From Alkalicoccus sp. (GTDB taxonomy: Bacteria > Bacillota > Bacilli > Bacillales > Salisediminibacteriaceae): a stretch of 64,000 bases of DNA. Below, in pieces: positions 30,269-32,594 of the stretch (the first letter of the stretch is position 1; the number at the start of each line of letters is the position of its first letter). The notes beneath the pieces are model-generated. The model saw only the letters and a program-made list of their open reading frames with translations, did no database searches and was not told the DNA's origin. The position numbers and the translations under genes were made by a program. The stretch covers positions 124,001 to 188,000 of the forward strand of contig REBZ01000106.1 of NCBI GenBank assembly GCA_007692495.1. The letters are read 5' to 3'.

Positions 30269-30398
30269 CTCTGTTTCTAACAATATATCAGAAACTGCCT
30301 CCCCTTTACCATTCCCCGCTTGACGCTTCCCGAAAAAGCTGATAGCTTTTAACTTACAACTGAATCGTTGCGATGAAAGTGGTGGGGTCACTACCGCA

Positions 30399-30475
30399 GG
30401 AGCAGCTTCTGGAGAGACTGCAGTAATGCAGCGCCGAAGGGTTCACAATCTCAGGCACACGGACAGGAGAAAATA
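30399..30475 (+). ncRNA. Glycine riboswitch aptamer (apparently singlet)
   Basis: CTGGAGAGACTGCAGTAATGCAGCGCCGAAGGGTTCACAATCTCAGGCACACGGACAGG contains conserved GGAGAG / GCGCCGAAGG / CTCAGGC / GGACAG elements; T8 run at 30528-30535. Confidence 0.88.
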
Positions 30476-30583
30476 ATCTAAAGATTTATTTTTCACTTGT
30501 GCTCGGGAATGGTTTCAGGACCAGTCCTTTTTTTTATGCCGCTGTAAGGCAGTCATTTTATTTTAAGGAAAGCAGGTGGAAAG

Positions 30584-30859
30584 ATGAAAGAGAAAAAAGC
30601 AGTCATCAGCGTCGTAGGGAAAGATCAGGTAGGTATTATCGCCGGTGTTACCACTGTTCTTGCAGACAATGATATAAATATACTCGATATTTCCCAGACT
30701 ATTCTGCAGGATTTTTTTACGATGATGATGCTTGTAGAAATAAAAGATCCAGAGAAAATGGAACAACTTCAGCTTGACCTTGAAGAAATCAGAAACAGGA
30801 TGCATTTAAAAATAGACGTGCAGCGGGAGGACCTCTTCCAGACGATGCACCGTATTTAG
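30584..30859 (+). CDS. ACT domain-containing protein (UPF0237)
   Basis: [36 protein letters not shown]. Confidence 0.93.
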
Positions 30860-30870
30860 GAGGAACAGCC

Positions 30871-32232
30871 TTGAGTTTAGCATTTCAGGAAATTCAGGAA
30901 ACGATCCGCATGATCCAGATGGAAAAGCTGGATATCCGGACTGTCACAATGGGAATCAGCTTAAAGGACTGTATGGACCAGAACCCTGCTGTTATGAGAA
31001 AGCTCGTTTACGAGAAAATTCTTTCCCACGCAGGCTCGCTCGTAGAGGAAGCTGAAATAATATCAGAGGAGTACGGCATACCGATTGTCAATAAGCGCAT
31101 CTCTATTACGCCCGCTGCCGAACTGCTCGGCACTTCCACAGTGGAAGATGCTGTGGAACTTGCGAAAACACTCGACAAAGCAGCGGCAGCGACGGGTATA
31201 GATTTCATTGGAGGTTTTTCTGCGCTTATCCACAAAGGAGCTGCCCGTGGGGATGAAATACTTCTCGATGCCCTGCCGAGGGCACTCAGCGAAACGTCGA
31301 GAGTGTGCGGCTCCGTATCAGTTGCAACAACAAAAACTGGCATTAACATGGACGGGGTTAAAAAACTGGGCGAAGTTATTAAAGAAGCATCCGACAGAAC
31401 AGCTGACAACAATGGCATCGCCTGTGCCAAATTCGTTGTTTTCTGCAACCCTGCAGAAGATAATCCATTTATGGCCGGGGCGTTTCACGGGACGGGCGAG
31501 CAGGAAGTCGTACTGAACGTCGGTGTAAGCGGACCGGGAGTAGTTCTAAACGCTTTAAAACGTTACCCCGAGGCAGATCTCGGAGAAGTTTCCGAAGTTA
31601 TTAAAAGAACAGCTTTTAAAATTACCCGGGCCGGTGAACTGATCGGCCGGGAAGTTGCTTCGCGTCTCGGCATTGAATTTGGCATAATGGATCTTTCCCT
31701 CGCACCTACCAATGCCATGAATGATTCAGTAGCTGAAATTCTGGAAGAAATCGGACTCGAACAGGTCGGCACCCACGGGACGATTGCAGCTCTTGCAATG
31801 ATGAATGATGCCGTGAAAAAGGGTGGGGCTATGGCAAGTTCCTATGTCGGCGGACTTTCCGGAGCCTTTATTCCTGTGTCTGAGGACAACGGTATGATTA
31901 AAGGTATCGAGGATGGCTCTCTGAGCCTTTCCAAGCTTGAAGCAATGACATGCGTCTGCTCTGTCGGACTGGATATGATTGCATTGAACGGTGACGCTGA
32001 TGCTTCCGGTATTTCCGGTCTGATTGCGGATGAAATGGCTATTGGGATGATTAATAAAAAAACAACAGCCGTCCGGGTTATTCCGGTGCCGGGAATGAAA
32101 GAAGGGGATATGGCGGAATTCGGAGGTCTTCTCGGAAGAGCACCTGTTATCAGTCTCAACCCGCGCTCCCCAGAAAAGTTCATCCGTCGCGGTGGAAGGA
32201 TTCCCGCTCCTTTACAGGCCCTGATCAACTAA
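30871..32232 (+). CDS. PFL-like family protein UPF0210/DUF711
   Basis: Sequence typical of UPF0210 ([50 protein letters not shown]). Confidence 0.92.
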
Positions 32233-32364
32233 AAAAAGATTTTATGAATAACGGCTCCGTTTAAGCTCCATCTTAAAACATTTTATCCTGTATAAAAACT
32301 AATTGAAAATTTAGTGATTTTTATCTATGATGTTGACATAAGGTTTATTCCGCACAATAATAGA

Positions 32365-32594
32365 AGAAAATCCGCCGGAAGATTAGTAGCCCCCCCTCCA
32401 TCTACAGAGAGCACCGGTCCTCAGGCTGAAAACCGGTGCAGTCATGCGAAGGGGCGAACCTGCTTCCAGTATGAGCGGACGGCACACTCCGTTAAAAGTG
32501 ATTTTGAAGCGGACTGTTTATCAGTCAATTAAGGTGGTACCGCGGCGAGCTCCTGCTCTTCGTCCTTTATTTAAAGGATGGAGAGCTTTTTATT
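32365..32594 (+). promoter_or_regulatory. T-box riboswitch, specifier CCU (Pro), controlling proBA
   Basis: T-box AAGGTGGTACCGCGG at 32531-32545; stem I with AGTAG and AGAGAG; specifier loop GAA-CCT at 32456-32461; terminator TCCTTTatttAAAGGA followed by T-run. Confidence 0.95.

Follow-up and report, generated by a model that had tools for sequence, protein, structure and literature searches.

A type-2 singlet glycine riboswitch is defined by a ghost aptamer lying 5′ of the aptamer (PMC6944388). Type 2 goes with transport (OFF) genes, whereas type 1 goes with gcv genes, and 90% of type-2 singlets lie upstream of transport genes (PMC6944388). In Bacilli, type-2 singlets precede genes for sodium:alanine/glycine symporters (PMC6944388). 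In Streptococcus pyogenes, the glycine riboswitch that precedes a symporter gene represses it at high glycine through premature termination (PMC5829553). In Bacillus methanolicus MGA3, an Rfam glycine riboswitch was found in an RNA-seq-mapped 5′ UTR before BMMGA3_03000, a gene of "unknown function" that adjoins a TPP-controlled thiD-thiE pair; the riboswitch is listed there without interpretation (PMC4342826, Table 4).

Here, we describe a glycine riboswitch in a 64-kb stretch of Alkalicoccus DNA (the window), located before a pair of genes encoding a UPF0237 ACT-domain protein and a UPF0210/DUF711 protein. Like the symporter leaders (PMC6944388), this leader has one aptamer and a 5′ ghost aptamer, and intrinsic-terminator OFF control, common to those leaders, is predicted for it as well. 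The target differs, being a transporter in the symporter leaders and the UPF0237-UPF0210 pair in the window, so the window leader departs from the transport-gene association, which is a tendency of type-2 singlets and not part of their definition. As in B. methanolicus MGA3 (PMC4342826), an Rfam glycine riboswitch precedes a gene of uncharacterized function. Both proteins have relatives of solved structure, 1ZPV for the ACT protein and 2HA9 (S. pneumoniae SP0239) for UPF0210.

Results

The features of the locus, all on the forward strand, are as follows.

30367..30406, +, ghost aptamer: outer helix 30367-30371/30402-30406 (GTTGC/GCAGC), inner hairpin 30379-30385/30391-30397
30399..30476, +, glycine riboswitch aptamer (RF00504): P1 30404-30411/30464-30471, P2 30418-30431, short P3 ending in the conserved CTCAGGC
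30446..30459, +, predicted antiterminator 5′ strand, CAATCTCAGGCACA, the 3′ part of the aptamer
30497..30512, +, predicted antiterminator 3′ strand, TTGTGCTCGGGAATGG, overlapping the terminator 5′ arm
30505..30535, +, intrinsic terminator: hairpin 30505-30528, stem GGGAATGGT/ACCAGTCCT with one mismatch, -9.5 kcal/mol, then T8 at 30528-30535
30584..30859, +, UPF0237 ACT-domain protein, 91 aa (NF001220, 117.1 bits against a cut-off of 74; Pfam ACT_6, 57.4 bits)
30871..32232, +, UPF0210/DUF711 protein, 453 aa (PF05167, 610.4 bits; NF003700, 710.4 bits against a cut-off of 440)

The initial annotation, made from the sequence alone, had proposed a singlet glycine riboswitch at this position and suggested a search with RF00504. 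An Rfam search at the gathering threshold (32 bits for RF00504) bore this out, with a match to the Glycine family at 30399-30476 on the forward strand (47.6 bits, E = 1.2e-6) that covers the complete model (positions 1-94). It is the sole Rfam match in the window at that threshold. All of the listed conserved elements are present in the order claimed: GGAGAG (30411-30416), the CTGCA/TGCAG hairpin (30418-30431), GCGCCGAAGG, CTCAGGC, and GGACAG (30461-30466). The hairpin had been labeled P3 and corresponds to P2 in the Rfam layout. The leader contains a single RF00504 match and no second glycine-binding aptamer, as proposed, and the leaders of relatives likewise give single RF00504 matches. One other glycine aptamer occurs in the host genome, before gcvT (66.3 bits). 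Judged by sequence, the window RNA belongs to an established riboswitch class, in which it is unremarkable, and is a predicted glycine binder. The aptamer is separated from the ACT gene by 107 nt.

A hairpin upstream of the aptamer had been suggested as a possible ghost aptamer stem, with the pairing GTGGT/ACTAC. In an alignment of 38 distinct leaders, compensatory changes support the ghost but place the conserved pairing in a slightly different register, 30379-30385 with 30391-30397. One pair of this hairpin is UA in 14 leaders, CG in 12, UG in 5, GU in 2, and AU in 2; another is UA in 25, GC in 8, and AU in 2; the closing pair is GC in 29, CG in 6, and UA in 2. The ghost outer helix appears alongside the aptamer in prefix folds of the window leader. 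Because its 3′ strand shares nucleotides with the start of P1, the ghost and P1 helices may not both reach full length. With one aptamer and a covarying 5′ ghost aptamer, the window leader is a type-2 singlet by sequence and predicted structure. The ghost aptamer also contains the GTG at which the mechanically called open reading frame of a beta-lactamase-family serine hydrolase begins (PF00144; 29177-30391, reverse strand); the true start of this gene is probably an internal ATG near 30277.

The T8 run previously noticed before the ACT gene lies directly 3′ of the terminator hairpin. The terminator is missing from the output of a consensus terminator scan, probably because of its stem mismatch. 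When prefixes of the window leader were folded, aptamer-like structures appeared at 105-130 nt, an antiterminator at 150-160 nt, in which 30446-30459 is paired with 30497-30512, and the terminator at 165 nt or longer. Counting a pairing when at least 3 bases of the terminator 5′ arm are covered, 35 of 37 leaders allow the aptamer 3′ strand to pair over this arm (mean z of -2.6 against shuffles). In the window, the CAATCTCAGGCACA/TTGTGCTCGGGAATGG pairing has an energy of -15.5 kcal/mol for the whole duplex and is no better than shuffles (z = -1.2, p = 0.14). The case for the predicted antiterminator rests on the wider set of leaders; for the window, the succession of structures in lengthening prefixes is nevertheless the one that a switch would be expected to show. 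In many relatives, CAATCTC in the aptamer faces GAGATTG in the terminator. Leaders of family f43 have a different antiterminator helix with the same role; in L206, GGACAGAGTC, taken from the P1 3′ strand, pairs with GACTCTGTCC. The pairing is weak in leaders L035, L041, L046, L069, L125, and L197.

Since the antiterminator uses up the aptamer, glycine binding should favor the terminator, giving an OFF switch. The polarity, for which the initial annotation gave no direction, is therefore predicted to be transcriptional OFF. The full-length fold without ligand includes the terminator in its minimum-energy structure, and full-length thermodynamic folds alone are no proof of switching. A scan for the sigma-70 consensus found no convincing promoter directly upstream of the leader.

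We then examined the two proteins. The UPF0210 gene begins 11 bp 3′ of the ACT gene, its mechanically called reading frame starting with TTG, and its closest named relative is from A. saliphilus (97% identity). Across 79 UPF0210 sequences, 167 of the 453 positions are at least 97% identical, and three cysteines (C34, C146, and C363 in the window protein) are near-invariant; this conservation points to an enzyme. The 2HA9 structure, called unpublished, shares its ten-stranded barrel with ribonucleotide reductase and pyruvate formate-lyase, but no radical glycine was found in 2HA9 (PMC4390871). Among characterized NCBIfam families, the ACT protein is closest to the ACT domains of PurU (27.4 bits) and GcvR (19.0 bits), both weak matches. 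The ACT domains of PurU (formyltetrahydrofolate deformylase) and GcvR (the glycine cleavage repressor) respond to glycine or one-carbon status.

UPF0210/DUF711 proteins occur in Bacilli, Clostridia, Deltaproteobacteria, spirochaetes, actinobacteria, and archaea. Laboratory strains of Lactococcus lactis and Corynebacterium glutamicum have UPF0210; a control search found none in Bacillus subtilis 168. Besides the ACT gene, the neighbors of UPF0210 in the loci inspected differ by lineage (an EamA transporter gene, spoVA genes, and others), and being unrelated from one lineage to the next, they offer no clue to function. No folate or purine genes adjoining the ACT-UPF0210 operon were seen in these loci. 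The threonine route to glycine was considered and set aside: threonine-aldolase-like and kbl-like genes are near-universal in the host family, with or without UPF0210, and so show no pattern complementary to it.

A survey of riboswitches upstream of the gene pair, as suggested in the initial annotation, recovered the same leader architecture in five Bacilli families and at two Clostridia loci. UPF0210 is carried by 24 of 36 genomes of the host family, and 21 of these 24 have a full-length glycine aptamer of short size (76-82 nt) immediately 5′ of the pair. No full-length glycine aptamer of this size was found away from the pair in the 36 genomes. The leader at UPF0210 was also detected in four other families of Bacilli (1/1 in f4, 3/3 in f12, 3/3 in f23, and 2/2 in f43), in an even sample in which 40 of 251 genomes carry UPF0210 and the upstream regions of most UPF0210-bearing members outside the host family were checked. 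Named loci with the aptamer belong to Alkalicoccus, Calidifontibacillus, Ureibacillus, Caldibacillus, and Bacillus marasmi. Outside Bacilli, the aptamer precedes the pair in Clostridium algifaecis (64.0 bits) and Clostridiales UBA8670 (62.5 bits).

The leader is missing from some relatives that have the genes. Three UPF0210-bearing genomes of the host family, all of one genus (G024, G030, and G031), have no aptamer even at E values up to 1. Also absent from these three genomes is the kbl-like gene (about 425 bits to TIGR01822) found in nearly all others of the family, and the two absences may be a shared clade loss. Among the sampled Bacilli, no aptamer was found upstream of UPF0210 in families f7, f8, f13 (seven genomes), f14, f17, f18, f27, f35, f37, and f41, or in Streptococcus-like genomes. 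At two Streptococcus-like loci (L201 and L205), the sequence preceding UPF0210 contains an L17 ribosomal protein downstream element (RF01708), so the pair there seems to follow a ribosomal protein operon. Many Clostridium UPF0210 loci also have no such glycine leader. Because genes in some relatives are without the leader, glycine control of the pair is not universal.

At one locus (L202, genome G119), a TPP riboswitch before a thiM-like gene on the reverse strand and the glycine riboswitch before ACT-UPF0210 on the forward strand stand back to back, about 210 nt apart. By analogy with this arrangement, the TPP-controlled neighbors of BMMGA3_03000 in B. methanolicus suggest that it is a UPF0237 gene.

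In Clostridium, we found a different class of leader at the orthologous pair. Eleven T-boxes precede ACT-UPF0210 at eight loci: one each at L075, L080, L086, L101, and L109, and two each at L085, L090, and L105. Specifiers were read by a rule (the codon, usually a purine, a pyrimidine-rich strand, and then GGAG) that was checked by eye on leaders of serS (TCC), metG (ATG), ileS (ATC), pheS (TTC), thrS (ACC), and proB (CCT), control genes recognized via their protein sequences. An automatic specifier pattern chose wrong sites in several T-boxes of C. carboxidivorans, and the rule is based on the leaders read by eye. All 11 specifiers are for glycine (GGA in 10 and GGC in 1), and all 11 T-boxes have GGTGGAACC with the GGAACC bulge, in which the A is able to base-pair with tRNA-Gly U73. 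In L085, the upstream T-box of the tandem carries GGC and the downstream T-box GGA.

The glycyl-tRNA synthetase gene glyS of C. carboxidivorans (716.7 bits; L214) has a further pair of short tandem T-boxes upstream with GGA specifiers and the same GGAACC bulge. The ACT-UPF0210 T-boxes resemble those of glyS in their short form, GGA specifier, and GGAACC bulge, and in three genomes in their tandem arrangement. T-boxes activate gene expression in response to uncharged cognate tRNA. The Clostridium T-boxes are thus predicted to sense uncharged tRNA-Gly, whereas the riboswitch of the window lineage is predicted to sense free glycine. A free-glycine sensor in Bacilli and a tRNA-Gly T-box in Clostridium, with the same predicted logic, point to expression of the pair when glycine is short.

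Two other T-boxes came under consideration. The T-box-controlled ACT gene CD1564 of C. difficile (PMC11477304) was tried as a UPF0237 gene and rejected: the UPF0237-UPF0210 loci of that species are without a recognizable leader, and CD1564 is probably a different gene from the UPF0237 gene of the UPF0210 pair. In the window itself, a T-box leader before proB (32364-32586; RF00230 at 69.7 bits, under its cut-off of 93) has a CCT specifier for proline and a terminator at 32555-32586, and is probably ordinary.

Discussion

From the sequence evidence, we consider it highly likely that the window leader is a type-2 singlet glycine riboswitch acting as a transcriptional OFF switch of the UPF0237-UPF0210 operon. 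At low glycine, the aptamer 3′ strand (30446-30459) would pair with 30497-30512 and occupy the terminator 5′ arm, allowing polymerase to proceed into the ACT gene. When glycine is abundant, the aptamer would stay folded and docked on the ghost aptamer, leaving the terminator arm free; the hairpin at 30505-30528 would then form, and transcription would end at T8. The ACT-UPF0210 pair would in this way be induced under glycine shortage.

The opposite polarity, a gcv-like ON switch through which excess glycine induces a pair that detoxifies or degrades glycine, has some precedent. Glycine riboswitches mostly precede gcv genes, as the second aptamer of the host genome does, and the gcv riboswitches are ON switches (PMC6944388, PMC11477304). 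The ligand-free minimum-energy fold of the full-length leader, with its terminator, also agrees with such a switch. We nevertheless regard it as unlikely, as the 5′ ghost places the leader with type 2, which goes with transport OFF genes, and not with the gcv-associated type 1 (PMC6944388). Pairing between the aptamer 3′ strand and the terminator arm, available to 35 of 37 leaders, argues against an ON switch as well, as do the Gly T-boxes at the orthologous operon, which activate at low levels of charged tRNA-Gly. More improbable still is that the aptamer is an evolutionary remnant or accidental neighbor of genes unrelated to glycine. Single RNA matches can be degenerate, and the genes of some relatives lack the leader; however, the full-length aptamer, its core motifs, the ghost, the terminator, and the antiterminator are kept over several families, and a mechanistically unrelated glycine sensor stands at the orthologous operon.

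A link of UPF0237/UPF0210 to glycine, already proposed in the initial annotation, thus gains support from both the conserved leader at the pair and the independent glycine T-boxes of Clostridium, and the UPF0210 family very probably takes part in coping with glycine shortage. How it does so is a more evenly balanced question. Our preferred reading is that UPF0210 is an enzyme that supplies or saves glycine, with a glycine-sensing ACT protein as its partner, though we give about equal weight to a role in a neighboring pathway. In the preferred reading, the ACT protein would be a regulatory subunit of the UPF0210 enzyme that responds to glycine. It is a real though less than even possibility that the pair is regulated by glycine but works in one-carbon/folate, serine, or purine balance and neither makes nor saves glycine. 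The kinship of the ACT protein to PurU (27.4 bits) and GcvR (19.0 bits) would suit such a role, but these matches are weak and reflect domain kinship only, and the inspected loci have no folate or purine genes adjoining the operon. As a tentative proposal in its most specific form, UPF0210 could be a glycine-forming or glycine-sparing enzyme built on a non-glycyl-radical version of the ribonucleotide reductase/pyruvate formate-lyase barrel and used only under glycine shortage, with UPF0237 as its glycine-binding allosteric subunit.

In the openly accessible article texts searched, we found no work joining glycine riboswitches with UPF0210, UPF0237, DUF711, COG3830, or COG2848, nor any joining T-boxes, glycine, and the UPF0237 ACT family. 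The conserved ACT-UPF0210 target, the predicted polarity, and the convergence with T-boxes appear to be new, not having been interpreted earlier. With this target, singlet glycine riboswitches gain a predicted role beyond gcv and transport genes. Two unrelated RNA sensors for one amino acid, with the same predicted logic, provide a testable lead on the uncharacterized UPF0210 family, namely glycine limitation. If the proposed roles of the two proteins are true, one step would come under control twice, through the RNA and through the protein, and the same function would be expected in the archaea and Corynebacterium that bear the UPF0210 family.
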